From NCBI GenBank assembly GCA_944325315.1, contig CALVAA010000016.1, forward strand, positions 1 to 43,576: a stretch of 43,576 nucleotides of DNA, read 5' to 3'. The notes below the pieces were generated by a model. That model was not told the origin of the DNA, ran no database searches, and worked only from the letters and a program-made list of their open reading frames with translations. The position numbers were made by a program, and so were the translations under genes. This document shows positions 24,380-38,687 of this stretch, one piece after another. Each line of letters starts with the position of its first letter. Position 1 is the first letter of the stretch. Source of the stretch: Candidatus Gastranaerophilales bacterium (GTDB taxonomy: Bacteria > Cyanobacteriota > Vampirovibrionia > Gastranaerophilales > Gastranaerophilaceae).

Positions 24380-24639
24380 ATATATTCAATTTAAACATAA
24401 AATTTTTAATTTGCAAAAGGCATTGACAAGCGTATAGTTTTTGCGTTTCAATTCTACATTAAATATTAAAATAAATCAATAAAATCATTAAAATTTTGTA
24501 CGACAATACAAAAATTCAGCTTAAAATGAGTGTTTTTTAAAAAATAGTGTTATTCTATAAATGTATTTTCGGACAATTCAAATTTGTATCATCTTTACTG
24601 ATTGAGAAACGAGGCTGACGAAAACAAGGAGGTATAACT
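24380..24639. other. Leader region between tRNA-His and the phage cassette
   Basis: No gene is seen. On the + strand a TTGACA at 24424-24429 is present without a good -10, and TTCTATAAAT near 24552 could be a weak -10 for the virion operon. A strong ribosome-binding site (AAGGAGG at 24626-24632) precedes the first phage gene. No repressor operator cluster or attachment-site repeat could be recognised. The cassette promoter probably lies here, but I cannot place it. Confidence 0.35.
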
Positions 24640-25029
24640 GTGCGCCATTGCAACAGTGTATTTAAAGCCAGCGATATTTGGTTTTTATCTGACAGTGAAA
24701 AATATGCTTCAAGAAGGCTATATATTGCAAACTGCCCGATATGTAATAAAAAAATTGCACTTTATTCTTATTTTGACACTTCATCTAAAGCTTATTTTGA
24801 ACAGTATTTTTATTCAGGAGGTGCTGTAAGAATTAAAGAAAAATTAAAAAAAGATATCCTGACAACAATGCTTGGTTTTAAAACAAAGTATAAAGCTCCT
24901 TACGGGTTTAAATACGGAAAAAATGTAGAGATAAAAAAAGATGGGAAAATTATTGCAATCGAACAATACGCTTGTGATTTTTGGGGCAATAAAGTTTTAG
25001 TTAAAAAAATACAAAATGAAAAAGAATGA
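24640..25029 (+). CDS. Phage-cassette protein with CxxC motif (129 aa)
   Basis: Function not recognised. The start is a GTG at 24640 seven nt after a perfect AAGGAGG. The product has one clear CPIC motif (about residue 32) and other Cys at positions 4 and about 110, compatible with a small zinc ribbon. The position, directly before the small terminase gene with an overlap of 14 nt, marks it as the first gene of the virion operon. A DNA-packaging or regulatory role is conceivable from context only. Confidence 0.6.
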   Translation: MRHCNSVFKASDIWFLSDSEKYASRRLYIANCPICNKKIALYSYFDTSSKAYFEQYFYSGGAVRIKEKLKKDILTTMLGFKTKYKAPYGFKYGKNVEIKKDGKIIAIEQYACDFWGNKVLVKKIQNEKE

Positions 25030-25327
25030 TGATTCTGAATTTTCTTTTAAAACTTCAAAAAAATCTTCCAAAAAAAATAATGATACACCATACACGATAC
25101 AAGAAGCGCTTTTAGAGTTTGATGAGTTAAAAAAAATTGCCTTGAGTTGTCTTGATAAAAACGGTAATCCTAATATTTCCGCTGCAATGAGGGCGGTTGA
25201 GAATAAAGCTAAAGTTGCAGGATTGTATTCAAGCAACAAAACAAACAGCCAGACTGTTGTCAAAATGAGTGAAATTCAAATAGACGGCAAACAACTAAAG
25301 CTTAATATAGGAGAAGAATACTTTTAA
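25016..25327 (+). CDS. Phage terminase small subunit
   Basis: The 103-residue protein resembles short TerS proteins of podoviruses. It has a Lys/Ser-rich N-terminus, the block TIQEALLEFDELKKIAL, then the helix ISAAMRAVENKAKVAGLY typical of small terminases that recognise pac sequences. It would bind phage DNA and load the large subunit. Its stop overlaps the first base of the large terminase ATG (25327), a translational coupling normal for terS-terL pairs. The start overlaps the upstream gene by 14 nt. Confidence 0.75.
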   Translation: MKKNDDSEFSFKTSKKSSKKNNDTPYTIQEALLEFDELKKIALSCLDKNGNPNISAAMRAVENKAKVAGLYSSNKTNSQTVVKMSEIQIDGKQLKLNIGEEYF

Positions 25328-26652
25328 TGGAATCTTTGATTCTCCCAAAGATACTCAATATTCCGCCCAAGCTCTTTCCTTTTATTTGTAACTTTAATTC
25401 TTACAGCTATTTCCTGTTGGAAGGCGGCAGAGCCTCGGGAAAAACGCAAAGTGTTGCAAGATTTTTATTATATATTGCTCAAATGCGTCATGTCAGAATA
25501 TGCTGCGGAAGAGAAATTCAAAACTCTATAGATGAATCCGTAAAAACTGTTTTTTTGGATTTAATTGATCAATACAATCTTGACTACGATATAAAAAGAG
25601 ATTGTCTGACAGATAAAACTACTGAATCTAAAATTTTTTTTAAAGGATTCAGAGAACAAGGAAAGGTTAATATTAAAGGCCTTGAAGGTGTTGACATTTT
25701 ATGGATAGATGAAGCGCAATCGATTGCAAAAGCCACATTGGATGTTATTGTTCCTACAATAAGAAAAAAAAATTCCGTTATAATTTTCACAATGAACCGT
25801 TATACAAGGTTTGATGCCGTATATAATTTTTGTGCAAAAAGAAAAGACTGCCTTCATATTAATGTTTGCTATTTTGATAACCCGTTTGTGGATGAAAAAA
25901 TCATAAAAGAAGCCGAAATTTCAAAACAAACAAATATTAATGACTATAACCATATATGGCTTGGATATCCAATGGCAAATAATAATGAATATTTAATTTC
26001 ATCAGATTCACTCGATAAATCATATAACCTTGAATATACTCAAGACACCCACTACAAAGGGAATTCTATAATGAGTGTTGATTTATCCGCTTCGGGGGCT
26101 GACTTGTGCGTTGCTAAACTTTTTGAGCAACAAAACGATACTGTTTGGCTTGAAAAAAATACGATAAGCTGGTCTGAATCTGATACTGATATTACCAAAG
26201 GAAAAATTGTAAGCCTTTATTCAAATTGGTCTCCGAATCTTTTGATTATAGACTCTGATGGTTTAGGATACCCTATTTGGGTAAGTATACAAAAAATGAT
26301 TAATTCCGCGATTGGTTTTAGAGGAGCTAAAAAACCTCTTTCAAAATATGCGCTCAATGCAAGAGCTGACGGATATCTTGCTCTTAAGGATTATATCGAA
26401 AAAGGATATTTAAAGCTAAAAGATAAAAACACAATAAGACAATTGGAATATATAAAAAAAATTTATAAACCGAATGGCTTAATTGCCATTCAAGACAAAA
26501 AAGAATTAAGGAAACTCCATAACGAAAGCCCGGATTTTGCCGACTGTGCAATGATGGCAATTTATGCACTTAATTTTTGCTCAAATGTTCTGCTTATTGA
26601 AGATGAAGAAATGAATTCATTTGTTCAGGCGGAATTTGAGCCGTTTGATTAA
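25327..26652 (+). CDS. Phage terminase large subunit
   Basis: The DNA-packaging motor and headful/cos nuclease. The ATPase half has Walker A GGRASGKT (33-40) and Walker B ILWIDEA (124-130, D128-E129), with a coupling segment IIFTMNR after it. The RNase H-like nuclease half supplies three acidic residues: D252 (MSVDLSASG), D309 or D311 (LLIIDSDGLG) and D406 (SPDFADCAMM). All catalytic residues are present in 441 residues, the normal PBSX/terminase_3 length, so the gene appears functional rather than decaying. Confidence 0.95.
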   Translation: MESLILPKILNIPPKLFPFICNFNSYSYFLLEGGRASGKTQSVARFLLYIAQMRHVRICCGREIQNSIDESVKTVFLDLIDQYNLDYDIKRDCLTDKTTESKIFFKGFREQGKVNIKGLEGVDILWIDEAQSIAKATLDVIVPTIRKKNSVIIFTMNRYTRFDAVYNFCAKRKDCLHINVCYFDNPFVDEKIIKEAEISKQTNINDYNHIWLGYPMANNNEYLISSDSLDKSYNLEYTQDTHYKGNSIMSVDLSASGADLCVAKLFEQQNDTVWLEKNTISWSESDTDITKGKIVSLYSNWSPNLLIIDSDGLGYPIWVSIQKMINSAIGFRGAKKPLSKYALNARADGYLALKDYIEKGYLKLKDKNTIRQLEYIKKIYKPNGLIAIQDKKELRKLHNESPDFADCAMMAIYALNFCSNVLLIEDEEMNSFVQAEFEPFD

Positions 26653-26674
26653 TTAAAAATGAAAGGAGAAAACA

Positions 26675-26878
26675 ATGTGTTTTATTAAAAGTTCTTCACC
26701 ATCTGTCCCGGAGTCTGTTTCACAGGATATTGTTCAAAGAAAAGAGGCTGATGCTTCACTTACAAAAAATTCAAATTCAAACAGGGAAGCTTCAACTTTT
26801 AAACAAAATCTAAAAACATCTGCTTTTGGGGTTGAGGATGAGACAAACACGAACAAGAAAACTCTTTTAGGAGAATAA
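26675..26878 (+). CDS. Small virion-associated protein (67 aa)
   Basis: A small hydrophilic protein with a pattern seen between terminase and portal genes in many podoviruses: a short start with MCF, then KEADASLTK, a Ser/Asn-rich middle, and a TSAFGVEDE...KKTLLGE ending. The exact role is not known; proteins in this position are usually annotated as structural or hypothetical. AAAGGAG precedes the ATG. Its stop is followed at once by the portal gene. Confidence 0.6.
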   Translation: MCFIKSSSPSVPESVSQDIVQRKEADASLTKNSNSNREASTFKQNLKTSAFGVEDETNTNKKTLLGE

Positions 26879-26880
26879 AA

Positions 26881-28515
26881 ATGTCTTTTTATACAGTCGA
26901 ATATTTTCAAAAAAGAAAACACGAAATGGAAGAAGTGTTTAATATTATAAAACCGGACCTTCAAGAGCTTGCTGATTATTTTTTGCCAAGAAGCGTTCAG
27001 TTTATTGCAAGAAATGTCAGAAAGCCGATTGTAAAAAACAAAAAAATTCTTGATTCAACTCCTCTTATTGCGCTTAGAAATTTTTCTTCGGGAATGATGA
27101 GCGGCGCAACAAGCCCTACCAATCGTTGGTTTAAAACTTCTTTTTCAAATATTGATCTTGCTAATGACTATTATTTAAAAAATTGGTGCGCAAGACAAGA
27201 AGAACTAACAAGACAAATCTTATACAGCTCAAATTTTTATCAGTCTTTGCCGGAAATATACAAACAATTGGGTGTATTTGGCTTTTGTGCTGTCGGAATT
27301 GAACCTGACTATGATAATATTGTAAGCTTTAAAGTATTACCTATCGGCTCTTATTATTATTCAAAAGACCACAAAGGAAAAGTGGATGCTTTTTGCAGAG
27401 TTTATATGGAAAGCGCTAAAAATATCGCTGAGCAATTTGGATCTTTAGTGCCCGATGAAATCATAGAATCTTCTAAAACAAATCCTTTAAAACTATTTGA
27501 AGTTGTGCATTTTGTTGAAAAAAATAAGTTTTATCGTTCAAAAAGACACTCATCAAAATACGCAAAATATATTTCTGCCGTAATTCTTTCGAATAAAAAT
27601 GAATTTTTATCAATAAAAGGTTTTGAAAAGTTTCCTTATGTCGTATTTGAAAGTTCTGCTTCGACAGATATTGATTATCCTCAAGATTCACCGGGAATTT
27701 GTGCATTGGCGGATGTCAAACAACTTATGACAATGGTAAAAGAGTATGCAAAAGCTGTAAAAAAAATCGTATGTCCGACATACAAAGGACCTGCAAGTCT
27801 TAAAAATAAAAAATTGGCCGATGTCCCGGGTGCTTATATTGAAGAAGATGAAAACGGCAGAGGAATCAGTCCTGTTTATGAAGTTAACCCAAGAGTTCTT
27901 GAATTAAAACAAGAAAAAGATGAGTTAAAACAGGCAATCAAAGAACATTTTTACAATGATTTGTTTGCAATGATACTGTCAACAGCAGAACGCGGAAGAA
28001 CAGCCACGGAAGTTAATGAATTAAAAGAAGAAAAAATGGTTCTTCTGTCTCCTCTGTTAGAGCAAATTCACAATGCCTTAAGGCAAATTTTAAATTGGAT
28101 ATATGATGAAGAAATAAGAGTCGGTATACTTGAACCTTTGAAAGACGAATACAGCAATTATAAATTAGAAGTTGAATTCATATCAAGTCTTGTTCAAGCG
28201 CAAAAAATATCCAATATTTCAAGCATGGAACGTTTTACAACTTTTGTCTCAAATATCGCAAATGCTATTGACCCTATTTTAAAATCTAAATTAAATGGAG
28301 AAAAAATAATAGAAGATTATGCTTCATTTGCAAATATTAGTCCAACTCAAATAGTTCCTGCCGATGAATTACAAAAAATCCGTACGCAAAGTGCAAATCA
28401 AATGAATCAGCAAATGCAAATGGAAACACTTTCAAAAGGAAGTCAAATAATTCAAAACATGGGCGGTGTTGATTCATACGGCGCAGATTTACTGGCACGC
28501 TTCGGTGTAATTTAG
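26881..28515 (+). CDS. Portal (head-tail connector) protein
   Basis: The dodecameric ring at the capsid vertex through which DNA is pumped and to which the tail attaches. The 544 residues match the T7 gp8/Bcep22-type connector family: QELADYFLPRSVQF, STPLIALRNFSSGMMSGATSPTNRWF near residues 60-85, VFGFCAVGIEPD, and the helical stem and crown (LSTAERGRTATEVNELKEEK). The C-terminus is rich in Gln and Met, as in related connectors. TAGGAG overlaps the end of the preceding gene. All regions are intact. Confidence 0.92.
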   Translation: MSFYTVEYFQKRKHEMEEVFNIIKPDLQELADYFLPRSVQFIARNVRKPIVKNKKILDSTPLIALRNFSSGMMSGATSPTNRWFKTSFSNIDLANDYYLKNWCARQEELTRQILYSSNFYQSLPEIYKQLGVFGFCAVGIEPDYDNIVSFKVLPIGSYYYSKDHKGKVDAFCRVYMESAKNIAEQFGSLVPDEIIESSKTNPLKLFEVVHFVEKNKFYRSKRHSSKYAKYISAVILSNKNEFLSIKGFEKFPYVVFESSASTDIDYPQDSPGICALADVKQLMTMVKEYAKAVKKIVCPTYKGPASLKNKKLADVPGAYIEEDENGRGISPVYEVNPRVLELKQEKDELKQAIKEHFYNDLFAMILSTAERGRTATEVNELKEEKMVLLSPLLEQIHNALRQILNWIYDEEIRVGILEPLKDEYSNYKLEVEFISSLVQAQKISNISSMERFTTFVSNIANAIDPILKSKLNGEKIIEDYASFANISPTQIVPADELQKIRTQSANQMNQQMQMETLSKGSQIIQNMGGVDSYGADLLARFGVI

Positions 28516-28524
28516 GAGGTTATT

Positions 28525-29448
28525 TTGGATATCAATACTATTATTAAAAGCACAGAGTATTTAGAATTCATTAACAGTGTTGACTTTCTCTACTGGGAGT
28601 TATTGTATTCTAAAAATAACGGTTTTATTTCGTTGACTTCAAAAGATGCGATAAATCAGGCAAAAAATGTGCTAATTTCGTTTGATAGCGAAACAGATAA
28701 AATTGCAAAGAAAGTAAATTTTGAAGATAAAAATGAAATAATTCAAAATAAAAGACAAGATTTAATTTCGAAAATAAACGAACATTGTTATGACCAATCT
28801 TTAATTTGGGCTAATGAGGTTTACAATGATGCAATTAAAAACATTCTTTTGTCTGTTTCAATTGACAAAAAAAATGTAAATGAATGTTATCAAAAAGGTT
28901 TAAGCGCAATCAACTGGGTTTGCAGTGTAAAAAAATCAAATGAAAAAACAAAAAATATTTTGATAGATGAATTTAAAAAGGATATTGAACATTCAATAAA
29001 TTCATCCCCGGATGATTATATCCCCAAAACTTCCGTTAAAGACAGCGATTTAAATGTGTTTTTTAAATTGTTTGATTTAATTTTAGACAATGAAAAACCG
29101 CTTTGCGAAAAGGATATATTAAAGAATTCTTCAAAACTGAATAAAGAAGATCTTGCTTATTTTGTTAATATTATAAGGGAGTTCCAAATTTACAAAAAAA
29201 CTTCCCTTAAAGATGAAATATCATTGATAAATGCCGCTTTTGAGGTCATGAAACTTAAAGATAACAAAGAAAAGTATGATTTTATTAAAGATATTAAAAA
29301 CGATTTCTATGAATTTGAACACAACAATAAAAAAATTGAAGTGCAAGATAAAATTGACCTTACCAAAAGACGCATAAATATGTTTTCATCTAACCCTAAA
29401 AAGGCGCTTAATTATTATAAAAAGGTTCTTACTTCTTCGAATGAGTAA
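28525..29448 (+). CDS. Phage protein of unknown function between portal and scaffold (307 aa)
   Basis: Function not recognised. The start is a TTG with GGAGG eight nt upstream and ten nt after the portal stop. The protein is charged and helical, with a repeated-looking YDQSLIWANEVYNDAIKN region near residue 95, and no Cys-rich or membrane segment. In related podovirus cassettes a helical protein at this site is taken to be an internal virion or scaffold-associated protein; this is inference. The end overlaps by 20 nt the convergent secreted-protein gene on the other strand. Confidence 0.55.
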   Translation: MDINTIIKSTEYLEFINSVDFLYWELLYSKNNGFISLTSKDAINQAKNVLISFDSETDKIAKKVNFEDKNEIIQNKRQDLISKINEHCYDQSLIWANEVYNDAIKNILLSVSIDKKNVNECYQKGLSAINWVCSVKKSNEKTKNILIDEFKKDIEHSINSSPDDYIPKTSVKDSDLNVFFKLFDLILDNEKPLCEKDILKNSSKLNKEDLAYFVNIIREFQIYKKTSLKDEISLINAAFEVMKLKDNKEKYDFIKDIKNDFYEFEHNNKKIEVQDKIDLTKRRINMFSSNPKKALNYYKKVLTSSNE

Positions 29449-29851
29449 TTTGACAATATTTAGGATTTGCAAGATATTTTTGGAAAATTTCTCCGTTTGT
29501 TGTCATTTTGGCTTCAAATATTTTATTTTTTGCTATTTCTTTTTTGAAGGTATTATTGAATCTTTGCATTGAGTCAGATAAAAACGGCAGTTGTGATTCA
29601 TCAAAATTACAAGTCAACAGTTGATAGTTTTTATCTTGAAAAATTTTTTCTTTATAAACACATTTGTTTTTAGATTTTTCAAGAGTAATTAATATATTAA
29701 AAACCTCGCCGTTATGAGCAATACTTCCTGTTTGGGAATATTCCATACAAGTTTTTATTGCCTGGGGGAAGTTTTGATTTGATTCAAGCGCATAAGTTGT
29801 ATTTAGGCAAATAAAAGCAACTAACAGAAAATAAAATAACATTTTTTTCAT
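29429..29851 (-). CDS. Secreted cysteine-containing protein encoded antisense inside the phage cassette (moron candidate)
   Basis: The start is the ATG at 29851 behind AGGAGAG; an open frame extends to 30070 but overlaps a phage gene. The 140-residue product has a classic signal peptide (basic MKKM, a hydrophobic core to about residue 16, and a TYA-L cleavage site), then a mature region with four Cys (TCMEYSQTG, NKCVYKEKI, LLTCNFDES, PKYCQITH), enough for two disulfides. It is the only minus-strand gene of the cassette and has its own promoter (29874-29879 box). Nothing suggests a virion role. It resembles a host periplasmic or surface protein more than a phage protein, so a lysogenic-conversion gene is inferred. 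Confidence 0.7.
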   Translation of the reverse strand: MKKMLFYFLLVAFICLNTTYALESNQNFPQAIKTCMEYSQTGSIAHNGEVFNILITLEKSKNKCVYKEKIFQDKNYQLLTCNFDESQLPFLSDSMQRFNNTFKKEIAKNKIFEAKMTTNGEIFQKYLANPKYCQITHSKK

Positions 29852-29873
29852 AAATATAAACTCTCCTAAATAA

Positions 29874-29879
29874 ATTATA
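29874..29879 (-). promoter_or_regulatory. Extended -10 promoter of the antisense secreted-protein gene
   Basis: TGATATAAT on the minus strand is an extended -10 (TG-n-TATAAT) placed 22 nt before the start codon. The -35 is weak (TTGCAT, 19-nt spacer). The same TTTGTGATATAATTT arrangement appears before the OmpH/Skp gene at 42343-42348. Confidence 0.5.
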
Positions 29880-29898
29880 TCACACAGAAAGGATAAAA

Positions 29899-30453
29899 AT
29901 GCAACAAGTATTACAAAACAATAATTGTCTTTCAGACAACAGTCAAAAAAAATTATTTGGTATGCCCGATAAATATGATTATTCAAAATATTCTTCTTTG
30001 AATGAGTTTGGCTGGGATAATGAGCTAATGAATAAATTTTTGCCAATCGCCCAGAAATTAAATCTTTCACAAGAATCTCTTGATATGCTGCTTGATTTAG
30101 CTTTAGAAATGTCTAAAAAACAAAAAAATGAATATGAAAAAGATGAAACAATAAAGCTTCAAGATAAAGTGGCAGGATTTTCAAAGTTATTTGATGAAGA
30201 TAAGGAAATTCCAAGCTCAAATTCTGTTCAACTGAGAGAATATATGAATGTTGCAGACGATGCTTACAACAAGTTCTGCTCGCCTCAGCTGAAACAGATA
30301 TTACAGTCAAGCGGTTTAATATATCACCCTGAGCTTATAAAAATGTTTTACAAAATAGGCGAACTTATAAAAGAAGACACTCTTTTCCATAGCGGTAAAC
30401 CTGTTGTCGAAGAATTAACGCCTGCGCAAATACTATACGGTACTAAAGAATAA
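29899..30453 (+). CDS. Phage scaffold / capsid assembly protein
   Basis: The 184-residue acidic helical protein sits directly before the major capsid gene, the usual position of the scaffold. Its C-terminal block QSSGLIYHPELIKMFYKIGE...EDTLFHSG resembles the conserved G-L-x-x-H-P-E-x-x-x-x-x-x-x-I-G-x-x-x-x-E-D pattern of podovirus scaffold proteins. It would guide procapsid assembly and then leave. AAAGGA precedes the ATG. The gap to the portal-side genes holds the antisense secreted gene. Confidence 0.75.
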   Translation: MQQVLQNNNCLSDNSQKKLFGMPDKYDYSKYSSLNEFGWDNELMNKFLPIAQKLNLSQESLDMLLDLALEMSKKQKNEYEKDETIKLQDKVAGFSKLFDEDKEIPSSNSVQLREYMNVADDAYNKFCSPQLKQILQSSGLIYHPELIKMFYKIGELIKEDTLFHSGKPVVEELTPAQILYGTKE

Positions 30454-30469
30454 AAATTAAGGAGGAAAA

Positions 30470-31465
30470 ATGTCAGTAGTTGGAAATACTTATATTACAT
30501 TAAAAGATAAAATGGCCCAAACCGAAAACGGTAGGGCAGCAAATGCCATTGTTAGTCTTTTGGCACAATCAAATTCTTTGCTGGAAGATGCAATAGTCAG
30601 AGAATGCAATGAAGGCTCAACCCATAAAACAACTGTAAGAAACGGCTTGCCTGAGGTTGAATTTAGAAAGTTTTATCAAGGTGTATCATCTTCAAAAGGC
30701 GAATATACGCAAATTACTGATTCAACAGGTATGCTTGAAGTTTATTCGCAGGTAGATAAGTCCCTTGCAGATCTTGAGGGAGACACTGCGCAATTTCGAA
30801 TGAATGAAGCTCAGGCTTTTTTGGAATCAATGAATAATACTGTTCAGGAAAATATATTTTATGGTTCTAAAAAAACAAATCCTGCAGGCTTTGACGGACT
30901 TGCGACAAGATACAATAAGATATCGGATGATAAAAATTCAATCGGCTACAGGGTAATTGATGCAGGAGGCACAGGTTCTACTAATACATCGATTTGGTTT
31001 ATCACTTGGGGCGATCTTCACACACATCTTTTGTATCCAAAAGGTTCTTACATGGGCTTTTTGCATACAGACAAAGGTGCTCAAACCGCAACTGATGCTA
31101 ATGGAAATATGTTTGAAGTTTACCGTGATCATTTCAAATGGGATATAGGAATGACAGTAAGAGATTTTCGTTCAAGTGCGAGAATTGCAAATATTGATGT
31201 TACAAAATTGAGCGGATCTGATGCTGCTGATTTAATTAAATTAATGATAAGTGCTTACCATAGAATAGCACGTTTTGCAAAAACAGGAAAAACAGTGATT
31301 TACTGTAATGAAACCATTGAAACATACTTGCATTTCCAAGCAATAAATAAAGCAAATGTTAACCTTACAATGTCTGATTTTGCAGGAAAACCGGTTGTTT
31401 CTTTCTTGGGAATACCGGTTAAATGCGCAGACCAAATTAGAGATGATGAAAAAGCAGTTCAATAA
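30470..31465 (+). CDS. Major capsid protein
   Basis: The 331-residue protein fits the HK97-fold major capsid proteins of Bcep22/Bbp-like podoviruses: RKFYQGVSSSKGEYTQITDSTGMLE, a DLEGDTAQFRMNEAQAFLESMN helix block near residue 105, FYGSKKTNPAGFDGLATRYN, and a C-terminal CNETIETYLHFQAINK strand region. It is the shell subunit and the most abundant virion protein expected. AAGGAGG is eight nt before the ATG. It is complete, with no frameshift. Confidence 0.92.
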   Translation: MSVVGNTYITLKDKMAQTENGRAANAIVSLLAQSNSLLEDAIVRECNEGSTHKTTVRNGLPEVEFRKFYQGVSSSKGEYTQITDSTGMLEVYSQVDKSLADLEGDTAQFRMNEAQAFLESMNNTVQENIFYGSKKTNPAGFDGLATRYNKISDDKNSIGYRVIDAGGTGSTNTSIWFITWGDLHTHLLYPKGSYMGFLHTDKGAQTATDANGNMFEVYRDHFKWDIGMTVRDFRSSARIANIDVTKLSGSDAADLIKLMISAYHRIARFAKTGKTVIYCNETIETYLHFQAINKANVNLTMSDFAGKPVVSFLGIPVKCADQIRDDEKAVQ

Positions 31466-31477
31466 AAGGAGAGAACA

Positions 31478-31873
31478 ATGTTATTAGATACGCAAAATTT
31501 ATTTTCGGACGCTCAGGCTATAACAACCGGAACAATCGATTCACAGAATATTGTAAAATTCGGAAAAAGTGATGTTTCTTTTGTTCCTATTATTATACAA
31601 GCTGTTTCTGATTTTTCAAAATTAACTTCTTTAACGGTAAAAGTTGTAACCTCGGATACTTCTGATTTTACATCAAGTAAAGTTTTAGCGGAATCAAAAC
31701 TTGAACTTGTGGATTTGAAAGCAGGTGCAAGGTTTCCTATTTCTTATTTGCCTAAAGGTAATCTGGGCTATATAAAACTAACATACACTGTTGCCGGAGA
31801 TACGGCCGAAACTACGGGAAAAATTACGGCCGGTGTAGTGGCTTCTAATGAATTATCCTACCATGATATGTAA
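31478..31873 (+). CDS. Bbp16-family capsid cement protein
   Basis: A 131-residue beta-rich protein that begins MLLDTQNLFSDAQAIT, the N-terminal signature of the Bbp16 capsid cement family. Members decorate the outside of podovirus capsids and stabilise them. It lies 12 nt behind the major capsid gene and is followed by a strong terminator, so these two genes would be the best-expressed pair. AAGGAGAG precedes the ATG. Confidence 0.82.
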   Translation: MLLDTQNLFSDAQAITTGTIDSQNIVKFGKSDVSFVPIIIQAVSDFSKLTSLTVKVVTSDTSDFTSSKVLAESKLELVDLKAGARFPISYLPKGNLGYIKLTYTVAGDTAETTGKITAGVVASNELSYHDM

Positions 31874-31884
31874 TTCCAATATGT

Positions 31885-31915
31885 TTTGCGGGTAATTTTA
31901 CCCGCAAATTTTTTT
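31885..31915 (+). terminator. Rho-independent terminator inside the virion operon
   Basis: A 10-bp perfect stem (TTTGCGGGTA at 31885-31894 with its complement at 31899-31908) has a 4-nt loop and is followed by seven T residues. It lies between the cement and the tail-side genes. It should reduce transcription beyond the capsid genes, giving more capsid than tail protein, as in other phages. Confidence 0.85.
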
Positions 31916-31932
31916 AAAGAAAGGAGAATCTT

Positions 31933-32418
31933 ATGTGTGTGCCGTCTATGTACGGAAGTTTTGCCTCCGGCGTTTTGGGTGTTACAAAAGAAATAATGGG
32001 TTATAATTCTTCCGCTAAAAATATAGAATATCAAACCCAAGCTGCTATAAACAATGCAAATCTTGCAAAAAATGAAGCTTTAAGAGTAAGTCAACAGGGT
32101 ATTGATGAGGCAAGAAAAGAAAAAATCCAAGGAATGCAAGAAGCAAATAAACAGCTTGCAAGAAATGCCGCAAGCGGTTTGGATGCTACTTCTCAAACAA
32201 GTATGTATTCTTACCAAGATACAATTGATTCTGCAAACAGCAGTGCAGATTTATTGAAAAATAATTATGACTGGCAGGCAAGTTCTTATTTTGAAAGAGC
32301 AAACCGGTATTTGAATCAAGCAAGAGACTACCAAAACAGCTATAATGGTCTTCTTTTTAATACTGCAATGAATGCGCTCGGTACTACAAAAAAAGTTGCT
32401 GAAAATTGGTATAAATAG
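31933..32418 (+). CDS. Internal virion protein, gp14-like (161 aa)
   Basis: A small Asn-, Ala- and Gln-rich protein with a hydrophobic glycine-rich start (MCVPSMYGSFASGVLGVTKEI) and a long helical coiled stretch with QTQAAINNANLAKNEA. T7 gp14-type core proteins have the same position and style: hydrophobic N-terminus, then coil. It could be an ejection protein that enters the host envelope. No other ejection protein of this kind is present. AAAGGAG lies just upstream. Confidence 0.6.
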   Translation: MCVPSMYGSFASGVLGVTKEIMGYNSSAKNIEYQTQAAINNANLAKNEALRVSQQGIDEARKEKIQGMQEANKQLARNAASGLDATSQTSMYSYQDTIDSANSSADLLKNNYDWQASSYFERANRYLNQARDYQNSYNGLLFNTAMNALGTTKKVAENWYK

Positions 32419-32426
32419 GGGGAATA

Positions 32427-33020
32427 ATGACAATTTCAAAGGCACAAATTTTTAATATTACTCTTAATATTTTGGGAGTTTCAAATCCGTTGGAAAATGC
32501 TAACAGTTCTGATAATAGGGCAATTTTATTAAACAATTATTATGAACTTGCCAGAGACTATGTTTTAAAAGATTTTGACTGGAATTTTGCAAGCGCTTTT
32601 AGGGAACTTTCTCTTTTGGAAAAAAATAACAAAAACTCTCCTTATACGTATTGCTATGAATATCCGAATGATTGTATTTGTGCAAGAGACATTGTTTCAA
32701 AAGGAAACTATGAATTACGGAAATTTTGTATATCATCATCTCAAAGCGGCAATTGTGTAATTTTAACTGATGTTGAAAATGCGGTTTTAAGATACACAAG
32801 AAGAGTAGATAAGGAAGTATATTTTTCATGTGAATTTACAACCGCACTTGCATATTATCTTGCTTCTTTGACTTCAAATGTTATATGCGGAAGTATGCAA
32901 AAGGGTGAGTTGGCATATGATAAATATACAAAAATTTTAAAGCATGCAAAAGTAATAAACGCTCAAGAAGGCGGAGAAAATTTGTATGATGACAATACAT
33001 ATTTAGATTCAAGGAGTTAA
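32427..33020 (+). CDS. Tail tubular protein A-like (head-tail adaptor)
   Basis: The 197-residue protein has the T7 gp11-type pattern: a N-terminal helical half (NIL-GVSNP, LARDYVLKDFDWNFASAFR), then YTYCYEYPNDCICARDI, a VENAVLRYTRRVDKEVYFSCEFTTALAYYLAS strand/helix part and a C-terminal GELAYDKYTKIL helix. It would bridge portal and tail nozzle. It is followed one nt later by the tail tubular B-like gene, the standard podovirus order. Confidence 0.85.
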   Translation: MTISKAQIFNITLNILGVSNPLENANSSDNRAILLNNYYELARDYVLKDFDWNFASAFRELSLLEKNNKNSPYTYCYEYPNDCICARDIVSKGNYELRKFCISSSQSGNCVILTDVENAVLRYTRRVDKEVYFSCEFTTALAYYLASLTSNVICGSMQKGELAYDKYTKILKHAKVINAQEGGENLYDDNTYLDSRS

Positions 33021-33021
33021 A

Positions 33022-35082
33022 ATGAGTATTAGAATTTGTCAAAATTCATTTTCAAGAGGCATCATCTCTCCTTCTTTGCAAGGCAGGGTTGATTTGGAAC
33101 AATATTCTTTAGGTTTGAAAAATTTAACTAACGGTATGGTACTACAGGAAGGCTGTGTTGTAAACAGGCCCGGTTTAGAGTTTTTGGTTAAAGCAAAATA
33201 TAATAACAAAAAAACAAGATTAGTGCCTTTTATTTTTAATTTATCTCAAAATTATATAATTGAAATGGGCGATAAATATTTCAGAATAATTAAAGACGGA
33301 GGCTATTTACTTAACGATTCCGGTGATATTGTTGAAATTGAAACAGAGTATCTCGAAGAAGACTTATTTAATATTGATTATGTGCAGCAAGCCGATGTTA
33401 TTACTTTTGTACATGAAAACTATCCTCCTTGTGAATTATCAAGATTGTCTAATGATGAATGGGTGTTTAACGAGGTAAGTTTTGAAGCTTCGATACTTCC
33501 TCCGAATAATGTGAGCGCTGTTTATACCGGCTCTGTTGCCTCTAATACCACTACTTATCAGTATGTTGTTTGTGCTGTGGATAAAACTACTAATGAAGAA
33601 AGCACAAGAAGTGCAATTGCTTCAGTTGTCGGACACCTGGAGGCCTATTGGACAACTTCCGAAAAGATTACTATTAGCTGGTCAAGCGTTGAAAACGCAA
33701 GCGAATATAACATATACAGAGCTGTAAACGGTATATTTGGATATGTCGGAACATCAAACAATACAAGTTTTATTGATAACAACATAGAGCCTGATCTTTC
33801 AAGTTGTGCACCTATTTTTACAAATCCTTTTGAAGAACAAAATCCTTCTTGTGTTTGTTATTTTCAACAAAGAAAAATTTATGCCGCTTCAAAAACTTCT
33901 CCTCAAACCTTTTGGGCGAGCCAATCTACAACAAATAATAATTTTAATATTTCAAGACCTTTAAATGCGGTTGATTCGATTACAATGTCAATTTATGATA
34001 ATGTTGCAAATGTTATTCAACATTTAATTCCTTTGAATGATTTAATTGTAATGACATCAAATGCCGAATGGGCGGTCAACGGTTCAGACGGTGTTTTTTG
34101 CGCCAGTCCGGCACCTGTTGCAAATATTCAATCTTATTACGGTTCATCTAAAATTAAACCCGTAATATCCGGCTCTATGGTTTTGTTTGTGCAATCAGGC
34201 GGAAATATTGTAAGAGATTTGGGCTATAATTATCTTTCGGATTCTTATGATGGGCAAGAGCTTACTCTTTTTGCAAATCATCTTTTTGAAGGCAAACAAA
34301 TAGTTGATATGGCTTATTCAAAAGAGCCTCACAGGATACTCTGGTGTGTTATGTCGGATGGAACGATTAACGCTTTAACATATAATCCTAAACAAAAAAT
34401 TTCTGCCTGGCATACTCATAAAACAGCGGGTGAATTTGAAAGTGTTGCCGTAATTCGTGAGGATAATGAAGATATTGCTTATTTTGTTGTAAAAAGAACC
34501 GTAAATAATGAGCAGGTAAGATATATAGAACGCTTTAAAAGCAGGGTTGTAAAATCTATGGAAGATGCTTTTTTCCTTGATTGTGCCCTAAAGCAGTCAT
34601 TTGATGAAAAAGTAAGCACGATATCCGGACTTGAGCATTTAAAAAATTCTGAAGTTTGTGCTTTGTTAGATTTCGGAGTGGTTGAAAAATTATCTGTAGA
34701 TGAAAACGGTAAAGTTAATTTGCCTTATGAAGCAAATAACGTTTTAATCGGGCTTCCTTATACTTTTGAACTTGAAACACTTAATCTTGAAAGCGAAGGT
34801 ACTATCGGGATATTTAAGACTATTAATAAAATTGAAATCAGAATTCTAAATTCACGAGAGGACTTTTTTATTGTTAATTCCGATAAAACTTTGTCCCAAA
34901 GCCCAAGAAGCCATCAGAGCGTCAATTATCCTTCACTTCTTTTTGATAAAGATATTGAATTTTGTCCGCTTAGTTCTTCTTCACTACAAGAATGCGTAAA
35001 AATTGTTCAAAAATTTCCGCTCCCTCTTAATATTTTGTCAATTTCAACTACGCTTTCTCTTCAGGAAGTTGAAGCACAATGA
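33022..35082 (+). CDS. Tail tubular protein B-like (tail nozzle) with inserted fibronectin-type segment
   Basis: The 686-residue protein starts with the family opening NSFSRGIISPSLQGRVDLEQY and ENG-like NMVLQEGCVVNRPG, followed by beta-propeller-like repeats. Between about residues 155 and 260 a segment (PPNNVSAVYTG...YNIYRAVNGIFGYVG) has fibronectin type III-like features with the Y-x-I-Y-R pattern. It forms the tube through which DNA leaves. AGGAG precedes the ATG and its end overlaps the next gene by 4 nt (ATGA). Confidence 0.87.
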   Translation: MSIRICQNSFSRGIISPSLQGRVDLEQYSLGLKNLTNGMVLQEGCVVNRPGLEFLVKAKYNNKKTRLVPFIFNLSQNYIIEMGDKYFRIIKDGGYLLNDSGDIVEIETEYLEEDLFNIDYVQQADVITFVHENYPPCELSRLSNDEWVFNEVSFEASILPPNNVSAVYTGSVASNTTTYQYVVCAVDKTTNEESTRSAIASVVGHLEAYWTTSEKITISWSSVENASEYNIYRAVNGIFGYVGTSNNTSFIDNNIEPDLSSCAPIFTNPFEEQNPSCVCYFQQRKIYAASKTSPQTFWASQSTTNNNFNISRPLNAVDSITMSIYDNVANVIQHLIPLNDLIVMTSNAEWAVNGSDGVFCASPAPVANIQSYYGSSKIKPVISGSMVLFVQSGGNIVRDLGYNYLSDSYDGQELTLFANHLFEGKQIVDMAYSKEPHRILWCVMSDGTINALTYNPKQKISAWHTHKTAGEFESVAVIREDNEDIAYFVVKRTVNNEQVRYIERFKSRVVKSMEDAFFLDCALKQSFDEKVSTISGLEHLKNSEVCALLDFGVVEKLSVDENGKVNLPYEANNVLIGLPYTFELETLNLESEGTIGIFKTINKIEIRILNSREDFFIVNSDKTLSQSPRSHQSVNYPSLLFDKDIEFCPLSSSSLQECVKIVQKFPLPLNILSISTTLSLQEVEAQ

Positions 35083-35558
35083 AAAGGATTATAAGGCCCG
35101 AGAGAAAATATTTTGAATTATTTTATGACAATCTGAGAAAAGAAGACAAAAAAGAAGTCATTAAAACCGTCAAGGATAAAAAGGAATTTTTAAAGCTTTG
35201 CACTATGAATCTTAATGCAAATTTTCTTGCTTTGGAAAATGACTTTCCGCTTGCAATGGGCGGAGTCAAAGATGTGTTTTTTAATGATTTAAAAGTGGGT
35301 CAGATTTGGCTTCTTACAACAAACAAACTTTACACTAACCGTATTTGTGTATACAGATATGTAAAATACATGTTGAATTTTTATAAAAAAGAATATGATT
35401 TTTTATTCAACTATATTTATAAATCTAATTTTAAAGCACTGAATTGGCTTGAAAAATCAGGTTTCAAAACTGTAACTTTATCTAAAACTTTAGATTTTAA
35501 ACTGTTTTATTTTATAAAAGGAGATTTTAGCTTTGATTTACGATATTTTACCGGTTAA
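35079..35558 (+). CDS. gp13/DUF2833-like internal virion protein
   Basis: A 159-residue protein of the T7 gp13-type/DUF2833 kind, which has a GNAT-like fold. The C-terminal LNWLEKSGFKTV resembles the G-F end of GNAT domains (N-W-L-x-x-x-G-F). It is fused into the tail block by overlaps at both ends (4 nt before, 26 nt after). In T7 gp13 is needed for virion maturation; whether this one has transferase activity is unknown. Confidence 0.7.
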   Translation: MKRIIRPERKYFELFYDNLRKEDKKEVIKTVKDKKEFLKLCTMNLNANFLALENDFPLAMGGVKDVFFNDLKVGQIWLLTTNKLYTNRICVYRYVKYMLNFYKKEYDFLFNYIYKSNFKALNWLEKSGFKTVTLSKTLDFKLFYFIKGDFSFDLRYFTG

Positions 35559-36477
35559 CAACTATTGCGGAAACAATAGTACAACAACTTTTGATTTTGA
35601 TTTCTATATAGACAATGAAGAACAATTAAAAGTTACGCTTTTTAATGAAAACAGTGTTCAATTGCCGCTTGTTTTAAATGTTGATTATTCAATTAATGAA
35701 ATAAAGAATCCTAATGGGAGTTTTATTACCTTTCCATTGCTAGGATCTTCTTATGGGATTTTAACAGACGAGCAGAAAATTTCAATTGAGCTTTCTTTGC
35801 CTATCTCACAAGAAACCCAATACAACAATAGTTCCCTTTTAAATTTATCGGCGCTTGAATATTCGTTCGATTACCTTACAAGATTGGTTCAGATAGTTTC
35901 AAGAAAAATTGCTCTTTGTGTTAAAGTTGATGAAGCTTCGGATACCACGCCGCAGGATTTAATGGAACAAATAAATTCAAAAGCGGTTTCTTGTGAGTTA
36001 AATGCACAACAAACACAACAAAATTTAAACACAATCCTTGAAAAATATGCTGCAATAGTTGATATTAACGGGTATATTAGTGATAATTATGACAAATTTT
36101 TATTGATAGATTCTGTTAATCAAAAATGCGACACCAAATTGAATTTGAATGCTTCTAATTTTAGCTCGGATGGTAAAACAGTCGTTACTTCTTTTTCTTT
36201 CCCGTCAAATGAGTCGGTGGATATAGCAAATGCTGGTCAGCTTTCATCATATACCGCTCCTGCTGACGGTTGGTTTTGTGTGAGTGGCAGTACAACAAGC
36301 TCCGGGTATATAACAATAAATTCAAATAGTATATCAGTGACACAGCGGACACCTGCGTCTGGAGGAATTAGTTGTTATTTGCCCGTAAGTAAAGATGCTA
36401 CTGTTACTATAGATTATGCACGGACTAATATTAGTTCTATTAGATTCATTTATGCAAAAGGCGAGGCACAGAGTTAG
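35533..36477 (+). CDS. Tail fibre / receptor-binding protein
   Basis: The start is a TTG at 35533, nine nt behind AAAGGAG, inside the end of the preceding gene. The N-terminal 150 residues look like the T7 gp17-type tail attachment domain (NNSTTTFDFDFYIDNEEQLKV, LEYSFDYLTRLVQ). A short helical shaft region follows, then a C-terminal domain of about 90 residues beginning near LSSYTAPADGWFCVSG, the style of receptor-binding tips. At 314 residues it is short for a fibre. The C-terminal part has more GC-rich codons than the N-terminal part, suggesting that the tip was acquired by recombination. Confidence 0.75.
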   Translation: MIYDILPVNNYCGNNSTTTFDFDFYIDNEEQLKVTLFNENSVQLPLVLNVDYSINEIKNPNGSFITFPLLGSSYGILTDEQKISIELSLPISQETQYNNSSLLNLSALEYSFDYLTRLVQIVSRKIALCVKVDEASDTTPQDLMEQINSKAVSCELNAQQTQQNLNTILEKYAAIVDINGYISDNYDKFLLIDSVNQKCDTKLNLNASNFSSDGKTVVTSFSFPSNESVDIANAGQLSSYTAPADGWFCVSGSTTSSGYITINSNSISVTQRTPASGGISCYLPVSKDATVTIDYARTNISSIRFIYAKGEAQS

Positions 36478-36529
36478 TGTGTGTGGCTTGGAAAAGAAAG
36501 TCGGTTGTAAGATTTAGGGAGAATTAATT

Positions 36530-37030
36530 ATGACAGTTAATTATTATATTGAAAGCGGTTCAAAAATCGTGTTGGCGGATAGTGATTATCAAAAGCTTGT
36601 AAATACGCTTGATTTTATGCCGCAGTATAAAAATTTGGATATAAAACAGACAACAAGACCGATAGTTTTGTCAGATAAAAGTAATGAGTTTGTGTTTGCA
36701 GATACTGAAGAGTATATTTTGGAGCAGAGTGAAAAGGAGGCTTTGAGATTATCTATGCTTAACCTTACTGCTGCTGATGTTGAAAGAGCTATTTACAAGG
36801 CAAAGGGGATGGATTTTGATGATGTCGTAGCTCTTGTCGAAAATTCCCATACATCAGAGATTGATATTAAGGCTCTAAAGATTGAGCTTAAGGCAAATAA
36901 TTTTTATCGCGGAAACCCATATATTGACCTTGTCGGAACTTTGCTCGGATTTAGTAAAACACAGTTGGATGAGTTTTTTGAAACAAATGATTATACAAAA
37001 TTATTAGCGGATAGTAGTGCTTTAAGTTAG
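36530..37030 (+). CDS. Phage-cassette protein downstream of the fibre (166 aa)
   Basis: Function not recognised. The first 80 residues look beta-rich (VNYYIESGSKIVLADSDYQKL) and the rest helical (EKEALRLSMLNLTAADVERAIYKAKG). Genes here, just after the fibre, are often chaperones or fibre-tip partners; this is position-based inference. TAGGGAG is upstream. Lys is encoded by AAG more often than in the virion genes to the left, consistent with a different origin for this end of the cassette. Confidence 0.55.
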   Translation: MTVNYYIESGSKIVLADSDYQKLVNTLDFMPQYKNLDIKQTTRPIVLSDKSNEFVFADTEEYILEQSEKEALRLSMLNLTAADVERAIYKAKGMDFDDVVALVENSHTSEIDIKALKIELKANNFYRGNPYIDLVGTLLGFSKTQLDEFFETNDYTKLLADSSALS

Positions 37031-37049
37031 TTTTAGAAAGGATGTAAGA

Positions 37050-37283
37050 ATGGATGATAAAATGAAACAAGCTTTGCTTGAATGTTGCGAAAGAAATTGT
37101 GAAGTTATTTCACCCGCTGCTGTAGCTTTTATTAAAGACCTCACTAATACAGCAATTGAAACATCAGAAACTTCGATTGATGATATGTTCTTGCCAATCA
37201 TTAATAAGGGCTTTGAAGTTTTGGATGAATTTTTAGTTAAACAGATAGATAAAATTGATGGAGTTGAAAATAATGCCGTTTGA
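37050..37283 (+). CDS. Small acidic phage-cassette protein (77 aa)
   Basis: Function not recognised. A soluble helical protein with an acidic centre (TSETSIDDMFLP) and two Cys near residues 12 and 13 (ECCERNC). GAAAGGATG lies upstream. It overlaps the next gene by 11 nt, so it belongs to one transcript with the downstream lysis genes. Confidence 0.5.
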   Translation: MDDKMKQALLECCERNCEVISPAAVAFIKDLTNTAIETSETSIDDMFLPIINKGFEVLDEFLVKQIDKIDGVENNAV

Positions 37284-37521
37284 TGTGGCAGAGGCGATTG
37301 AGGCATTAGCAGAGGCTTTAAAGAAAGGTTTTTCTTGTGCTGAATCTTTTAAAAAAAGGCAGTCTGAAGCTGAAATAATTAAATTTGCAAGAGAAAAAAT
37401 TAAGGCAATCGATATAGCGGAAAGAATTATAGTGCTTTGTTATAATTATTATTCTTTATTTAGTTTGGAAGATAAAAAGGAGTTTTCCAGTCTTTTTGAA
37501 AAGTTTTTAGAGCATAATTGA
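37273..37521 (+). CDS. Small helical phage-cassette protein (82 aa)
   Basis: Function not recognised. The frame opens at a TTG at 37255, but the ATG at 37273 with GGAG nine nt upstream is the better start. The product is a mainly helical, charged protein (VAEAIEALAEALKKGF, EIIKFAREKIKAIDIA) without signal or membrane segment. Its stop TGA overlaps the start of the DUF1353 gene (TGATG), so translation is coupled. Confidence 0.5.
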   Translation: MPFDVAEAIEALAEALKKGFSCAESFKKRQSEAEIIKFAREKIKAIDIAERIIVLCYNYYSLFSLEDKKEFSSLFEKFLEHN

Positions 37522-37922
37522 TGGAAATTTTTTATACTGATTTTTCAAGGTTATTGGGATTTGATTATAGAGATTCAAAGCCGTTGTATCTGACAAGTCC
37601 TGTGACGGTTGTTGTTAGTACTTTGAATTGTATTTGTTTTGTAATACCCGGTGGTTATAGGTCTGACGGATGTACATTGAAATTTCGTGTTTTTTGGTTG
37701 CTTTTCGGTTGTCCGCATACAGGTAAGTATGTTCCTGCAAGTGTAATTCATGATTATGTTGTTGAAAACCCTGAACTTGTAAATGGGGATTTGAGGTTAT
37801 CGACAGATATTTTTTATTTCGTATTGCTTAAAGAAGGTGTAAATGGAGTGATTGCAAATTTGATGCGGTTTTTTGTGTATTGGTATCAAAGGATTTTTAA
37901 AAAGGAGAGATGGAATGCCTGA
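37521..37922 (+). CDS. DUF1353 family phage protein
   Basis: The 133-residue protein matches DUF1353: a early strand with VVVSTLNCICFVIPGGYRSDGCTL (matching V-P-x-G-F-x-T-D-G-A-S), FWLLFGCPHTGKYVPASVIHDYVV with the conserved A-S-x-I-H-D-Y-x-x block, and a C-terminal helix. DUF1353 genes are common in tailed phages near the lysis genes, with unproven function. Start at the ATG overlapping the previous stop. Confidence 0.8.
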   Translation: MEIFYTDFSRLLGFDYRDSKPLYLTSPVTVVVSTLNCICFVIPGGYRSDGCTLKFRVFWLLFGCPHTGKYVPASVIHDYVVENPELVNGDLRLSTDIFYFVLLKEGVNGVIANLMRFFVYWYQRIFKKERWNA

Positions 37923-38292
37923 ACAGCCTGATAAGTGTAGAGAACATCATATGCTTTTGAAAAGAGAAATCGAAAATTTTAAAAAAGAGTTTGACGATTT
38001 GATTAAAAATTGTAAGGATATGCATTGTTTCTTTTTTGGCGGTTATAATCAGTCAGACGGGCATATCAGTTTTGTTGATAAGGTTAATACTTTGTATGAA
38101 AATCAAAGAAAAGCGAGAACCTTTTTGTACACTTTTTTGAGTGCGTTTGGCGTTTTGATTATTAGCGGTTTTGTTGGTCTTGGAATACAGCTTCAAAAAA
38201 TTGATAAAACTGCTCAGGATTTGCAGTATGTGATGCAAAAGCAAGCACAGTTGGAGATAAGTATAGCAAAAATTGAGGAAAAGATTAAATGA
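37915..38292 (+). CDS. XhlA/holin-associated membrane protein
   Basis: The start is the ATG at 37915 (AAGGAG seven nt upstream), giving 125 residues; a longer frame from 37873 has no ribosome-binding site. A soluble N-terminal helical part (about 1-60, EIENFKKEFDDLIKNCKD) is followed by one transmembrane helix (FLYTFLSAFGVLIISGFVG, about 77-95) and a C-terminal coiled-coil tail. This layout resembles phage XhlA-type haemolysin/holin-partner proteins. It directly precedes the endolysin gene with a 4-nt overlap, so a role in lysis is inferred. Confidence 0.6.
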   Translation: MPEQPDKCREHHMLLKREIENFKKEFDDLIKNCKDMHCFFFGGYNQSDGHISFVDKVNTLYENQRKARTFLYTFLSAFGVLIISGFVGLGIQLQKIDKTAQDLQYVMQKQAQLEISIAKIEEKIK

Positions 38293-38687
38293 GTTTAAAT
38301 TTTACAATTTCGGAGTTGATTAAATCAGATACAGCATCAAAATATAATATCAATAATATGCCGGATATAAACTCACTCGATAACTTATTGGATTTAATCT
38401 TCTACTGCTTGCAGCCTTTAAGGGATAAATTAAATAAGCCTGTTGTAATAACTTCGGGTTATAGGAGTACCCGGGTGAACAGACTCACGGGCGGAGTATC
38501 TAATAGTCAACACCTTTACGGTCAAGCGGCTGATTTTATAATAAATGGTATGACCCCTTTTCAAATAATAGAAAAAATTAAAACCTACAATATCGACTTT
38601 GACCAACTCATAAATGAATACGATAAATGGGTGCATATTTCATATGTTAAAGGAAAAAACAGAAAACAAGTTTTAAAAATAAGCTAA
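38289..38687 (+). CDS. Endolysin, M15 family peptidase
   Basis: A 132-residue zinc peptidase of the M15 (VanY/D-Ala-D-Ala carboxypeptidase) type that cleaves peptidoglycan crosslinks. The zinc ligands and catalytic residue are in place: SQHLYGQAADF with H75 and D82, and DQLINEYDKWVHISY with E110 and H116; SGYRSTRVN is the substrate block. No signal peptide, so release requires the adjacent membrane protein. It is the last gene of the cassette; its stop overlaps the last codons of the host HD gene. Confidence 0.93.
   Translation: MSLNFTISELIKSDTASKYNINNMPDINSLDNLLDLIFYCLQPLRDKLNKPVVITSGYRSTRVNRLTGGVSNSQHLYGQAADFIINGMTPFQIIEKIKTYNIDFDQLINEYDKWVHISYVKGKNRKQVLKIS

Follow-up and report, generated by a model that had tools for sequence, protein, structure and literature searches.

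Why would the head genes of a phage-like element enclose, on the opposite strand, a gene for an exported protein with an apparent promoter of its own? The question is raised by a podovirus-type cassette of ~14 kb with capsid and tail genes (24640–38687, plus strand) in the window, i.e. the whole stretch of 43,576 nucleotides from a Gastranaerophilales genome that was analysed here. The accessory gene, designated ANTI, lies at 29429–29851 on the minus strand and encodes a 140-aa, four-cysteine protein with predicted export.

The antisense gene and its product

Translation of the ANTI reading frame from its ATG start begins with MKKMLFYFLLVAFICLNTTYALES. A 213-aa ORF with a GTG start represents an upstream extension of the same gene and was rejected, since 28/28 orthologues start at MKK. 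The MKK start is followed by a hydrophobic core and candidate signal-peptidase I sites, and signal-peptide features were found in all 28 orthologues, 26 of them being without a lipobox-like match. The mature protein contains C35, C64, C81 and C133, invariant in 28/28 orthologues, and a fifth cysteine (C15) is situated within the signal peptide. According to this model, cleavage by signal peptidase I would be followed by folding outside the cytoplasm, where two disulfides may form, C64–C81 across a predicted hairpin and C35–C133.

Protein searches over 146 related genomes returned strong ANTI homologues in each of the 28 genomes (Gastranaerophilales MAGs) representing the genus, the orthologues showing 49–65% identity (alignment A1). 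Mapping of the cassette genes placed ANTI antisense between portal/U307 and scaffold in every one of these genomes; in one (G005), U307 was undetected by similarity, and in three the contig ends within or next to the scaffold gene. In the window, one side is occupied by the portal gene (26881–28515) and then U307 (28525–29448, plus strand), a fast-evolving, unassigned cassette gene found beside ANTI in this genus only. On the other side are the scaffold/maturation gene (29899–30453, plus strand; ‘protease’ PHROG 458, E 6e-24) and then the major capsid protein (MCP) gene. The 3′ end of ANTI overlaps the 3′ end of U307 by 20 bp and the rest of the gene resides in its own gap; in orthologous loci the 3′ end overlaps or abuts U307. 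ANTI is therefore antisense to the operon transcript and, apart from this 20-bp overlap, not to another coding sequence.

Median dN/dS values, approximate as dS is high, were 0.08 for MCP, 0.09 for portal, 0.10 for TerL, 0.22 for scaffold, 0.24 for ANTI and 0.44 for U307. By this comparison of coding sequences, ANTI is under purifying selection and its protein is preserved. The trees of rpoB, the cassette core and ANTI had 4–6 of 19 splits in common, the random mean being near 0.2. No strongly supported conflict was seen between the ANTI tree and the cassette core and one was seen with rpoB, while rpoB and the cassette core gave 8/14 conflicts. Tree agreement above chance, yet with conflicts, indicates broadly shared inheritance with recombination or saturation.

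A match of the ANTI protein to phrog_37512 (E 7e-4), a family of unknown function, was discarded as chance (2/28 orthologues only), and NCBIfam IseA, a peptidoglycan-hydrolase inhibitor, was matched too weakly to be retained (5/28 members, E 0.016 or worse). Structure prediction from one sequence was unusable (pLDDT 46). Prediction with seven sequences reached pLDDT 75 and gave an alpha-beta4-alpha arrangement, for which Foldseek returned nothing significant from PDB or BFVD and VIA-align no fold match (best Z 5.0). The family searches revealed no similarity to receptor or competence families. In keeping with the earlier note's reading of ANTI as an accessory gene, no homologue known as a virion protein was found by PHROG, structure searches or comparison with phage records. 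Rfam returned two tRNAs as its sole matches.

Promoter and antisense arrangement

A Shine-Dalgarno sequence, AGGAGAG (29861–29867, minus strand), was read from the sequence, its AGGAG lying ~9 nt 5′ of the ANTI ATG, and a purine-rich G-run occurs at the same place in the orthologues. Upstream of it is an extended −10 promoter, TGTGATATAAT (29874–29884, minus strand), conserved at 28/28 orthologous loci and adjoined by the start codon and ribosome-binding site (RBS) of the scaffold gene. The 43–56 bp between the ATG of ANTI and that of scaffold were aligned for 28 loci. Two conserved blocks are visible in this alignment, one comprising the scaffold start and RBS, the other being the minus-strand TGTGnTATAAT. 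Each TGTG column is kept in 27–28 of the 28 loci; TATAAT is present in 25/28 and TACAAT in 3/28. The information content is 0.14 bit in the N column and 1.5–2.0 bits in the fixed columns, and falls below 1 bit in the next 14 columns downstream, while an RBS and ATG follow 18–30 nt beyond the motif at 28/28 loci. Because TGTGnTATAAT is kept while its N varies freely, the extended −10 call is well supported, and so is the assignment to ANTI of its own promoter, apart from the phage operon.

TTGCAT is not claimed as a −35 element; it overlaps the scaffold start codon (ATGCAA) and the spacer is 19–24 nt. A genome-wide search for TRTGnTATAAT showed no enrichment (38 occurrences versus 34 for the reversed control). 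Just upstream of the portal and MCP genes RBSs only were seen, with no comparable motif obvious. The earlier note had described, from this sequence, a 140-aa minus-strand gene with a signal peptide, four mature cysteines, its own RBS and its own extended −10 promoter, all of which the comparative sequence analysis confirmed.

A simple consensus scan of the minus strand found no terminator-like site between the ANTI 3′ end and the operon genes ahead; on the plus strand, a simple consensus scan from the operon leader to 31211 found none either. From the latter result, transcription of the virion operon is expected to run antisense through ANTI. Expression of ANTI during silence of the virion operon is predicted, from the promoter only: the housekeeping polymerase would transcribe ANTI in ordinary cells with the virion operon off.

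The cassette and the origin of ANTI

The first part of the cassette comprises a zinc-ribbon-like gene, a possible small terminase, TerL, portal (head-tail connector), U307 and scaffold; these are followed by MCP (GP7-type), Bbp16-like, internal virion and tail-tube A and B genes and, in the last part, by short tail-fibre-like, chaperone-like, Rz-like and M15 endolysin genes. The GP7-type capsid protein is presumably epsilon15/BPP-1-like. Before the first cassette gene lies a conserved leader (24545–24639, approximate start, plus strand), containing TTTTCGGACAATTCAAATTTGTATCATC ... GAGAAACGAGGCTGACGAAA, the latter element being largely kept in 23 genomes; it is possibly an operon control site. 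In four genomes (G005, G006, G012, G018) other DNA stands in place of the upstream half of the leader.

Among the cassette genes searched, none was recognised as coding for an integrase, a repressor or a replication function. MCP is single-copy in 28/28 genomes of the genus, cassette ORF lengths are mostly uniform and, apart from truncation at contig ends, no sign of decay was seen. The cassette thus has a trait of gene transfer agents (GTAs), namely a vertically inherited, fixed and intact head-tail cluster, the agreement with rpoB being above chance but with conflicts. Judged by its genes, it looks reduced, domesticated, fixed genus-wide and GTA-like rather than like an ordinary prophage. 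With the capsid gene fixed in two Gastranaerophilales genera (28/28 genomes here, 41/41 in the genus g41), it is a candidate podovirus-type GTA of gut Cyanobacteriota. The cassette of G001 and G004 (L032, L035) lies in inverted orientation with respect to the HD-domain and m39577 genes at its flanks. Two known GTAs, RcGTA and the podovirus-like FpGTA from Faecalibacterium (PMC12946183), are likewise reduced head-tail-lysis clusters without recognised integrase or replication genes; the present cassette differs from them in host lineage, gene set (GP7-type capsid protein) and the presence of a host-derived antisense gene. Alphaproteobacterial GTA clusters are mostly inherited vertically, and their recipients need dedicated functions (PMC10883770). 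Literature searches that combined Gastranaerophilales or Melainabacteria with gene transfer agents did not bring up an element of this kind.

Genus-derived profiles detected remote ANTI homologues in other genera (E 1e-18 to 1e-5); the genomes concerned gave no MCP match when the same relatives were searched. These standalone copies adjoin atpC (ATP synthase), rplL (ribosomal L10/L7-L12), pgk, pckA, mnmE and leuB, the neighbours being judged by eye from translations. A joint alignment of 19 cassette and standalone members (A3) contains six invariant columns, including cysteines 35, 64, 81 and 133, and ANTI shares with this protein family the export signal and four conserved cysteines in C-x-Y ... 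C-x-F ... C spacing. Of 192 genomes sampled from the order, 106 were matched by the A3 profile, which itself includes standalone members; a single family accounts for all of these except two, and as many as six copies were present in one genome. In a phylum-wide sample the profile gave no match outside that family. The window's own genome has a second copy (G000:C4:111709-111972). A tblastn search of the ANTI protein against 50,697 phage records gave no match, and the capsid protein matched 91 of these records, at <60% identity. The sequence comparisons have shown ANTI to belong to a host family of small exported four-cysteine proteins. In the genus g2 (L061, L063 and other ~300-aa frames), the four-cysteine domain appears to be fused in frame behind a cysteine-rich protein, YkgJ-like by eye.

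The same head genes occur without ANTI in prophage G058, which carries a serine recombinase and a CI-like repressor, and in G033, G039, G075 and G029. Among viral contigs with related capsid proteins, ANTI was present in only 2/49, and these two, with 82–85% capsid identity, are probably host fragments of this genus. One of them, L137 (IMGVR_UViG_3300011008_002753), lacks TerL as well as the majority of the tail genes, one tail gene being truncated, and yet has an intact ANTI, a state reflecting either decay or misassembly. The host-family profile matched 0/41 genomes of g41; such an empty result shows little alone, but the same profile matched widely within the same family. The portal–scaffold gap measures 88–140 bp in 9/10 g41 loci examined, likewise in L104/L105, and 355–467 bp in L106, L227 and the prophages L102/L103; no minus-strand ORF >60 aa was found in the gaps of these loci. 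The corresponding site of related phages thus lacks ANTI, as expected of a moron.

In view of host-family homologues without the cassette and of its absence from phages, related prophages and the second genus, ANTI is, at the level of sequence comparison, a gene of the moron type that was taken over from the host. Entry of the ANTI copy into the cassette would predate the divergence of the sampled species. As a rule, morons occur sporadically, as cargo of mobile prophages. Like these lysogenic conversion genes, ANTI is a gene in a structural operon, predicted to be independently transcribed, with a host-type product and absent from related phages. It differs in that it resides in a domesticated-looking cassette fixed genus-wide, occurs in all sampled species rather than sporadically, and has its source in a host family belonging to the same bacterial lineage.

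The interpretation given in the earlier note therefore holds with respect to the promoter, the exported host-type protein, for which homologues were indeed present in host genomes lacking the cassette, and the moron-like architecture, with its own promoter and absence from the same place in related prophages and g41. Its further proposal, that ANTI is a reason for the host to retain the element, fails as a general claim: g41 keeps the capsid gene in 41/41 genomes, in which no family member was detected. Since the cassette is fixed there without ANTI, its retention cannot in general be ascribed to ANTI.

Possible roles of the ANTI protein

The best explanation as a whole is that of a moron-type accessory gene, most likely acting in the envelope to the benefit of the cassette, an explanation to which we give slightly less than an even chance. 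Gene, place and orientation are conserved genus-wide; TGTGnTATAAT with its free N and the signal-peptide features are found in 28/28, at a dN/dS of 0.24; and the gene combines a host family with absence from phage records, related viral contigs, prophages and g41 cassettes. Additionally, after core correction, ANTI divergence correlated best with that of U307 (partial r 0.43, p 0.001; 14 genes compared), the value for scaffold, an equally close neighbour, being −0.22. U307 is weakly similar to a large ‘endolysin’ protein of related prophages (PHROG 1044, 900 positions), where the U307-like segment is inside a larger protein encoded after the tail-tube genes. The correlation and this ‘endolysin’ counterpart make a particle-entry or wall-degrading partner plausible, and this weakly favours exclusion or self-protection. 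The ANTI protein would then shield sister cells, either against the step by which the particle enters a cell or against its lytic enzymes, possibly via the neighbouring U307 protein. However, the exclusion role rests on analogy and one correlation, which could reflect joint recombination; there is no fold or family match, the promoter motif is unenriched genome-wide, and ANTI is not generally needed, as g41 keeps the cassette without it. Superinfection-exclusion proteins such as Ltp of Streptococcus thermophilus phages and P22 SieA are, like ANTI, small, envelope-targeted and encoded by a phage element, expression in uninduced cells being a prediction for ANTI. No sequence or fold match to them was found, and ANTI, unlike lipoproteins and membrane proteins, is predicted to be soluble and exported, with four cysteines.

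Alternatively, the cassette may be merely the landing place of pure host cargo with an ordinary role in the envelope or in gut colonisation. We regard this as possible but doubtful. The family is indeed host-wide, and cassette-free genomes have one or several standalone copies next to unrelated housekeeping genes, but ANTI occupies the same slot and orientation in 28/28 genomes, in contrast to the scattered positions of the rest of the family, and no strong conflict is apparent between the ANTI and cassette trees. This suggests either that the linkage is important or that excision has not occurred. Rather doubtful, too, is the specific proposal that ANTI is a host-derived, constitutively exported GTA-linked gene for self-immunity or recipient control, marking or protecting kin against the cassette's own particles. 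We found no described case of such a gene.

Within one population, the cells that produce GTAs are not those that receive them, and receptor and uptake functions have to be expressed by the recipients (PMC10883770). A constitutive exported protein might thus help non-producing kin to adsorb particles or take up DNA, for which an independent promoter would be suitable and to which the capsule receptors and competence proteins serving RcGTA offer a parallel. The lack of similarity to receptor or competence families, as well as the absence of ANTI from g41 with its fixed cassette, make this improbable.

Less probable still is that antisense transcription itself is the function, the RNA interfering with the virion operon or providing RNA-based exclusion. 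STnc6030 of prophage BTP1, whose promoter, like that of ANTI, directs transcription antisense through virion genes, excludes its own phage (PMC7067206), and no minus-strand terminator-like site was found between ANTI and the operon genes ahead. But STnc6030 is a non-coding RNA without an ORF >60 aa (PMC7067206), whereas ANTI is a conserved protein-coding gene in the gap between two virion genes. Here frame, signal peptide and four cysteines are kept with a dN/dS of 0.24, indicating that the protein is selected, and the nearest antisense target, U307, is one of the cassette genes that evolve fastest. That ANTI is a virion or lysis component which happens to sit on the other strand is hardly credible, for although it is inside the morphogenesis block and always kept with it, it has a cleavable export signal, its own promoter and host-family homology, no PHROG match consistent across members, and is absent from related phages.

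What distinguishes the arrangement is one moron in a fixed slot and orientation throughout a genus, drawn from the host's own family of exported proteins. If ANTI protects or marks kin, it would open a direct way to study how GTA-like systems spare or selectively serve relatives.
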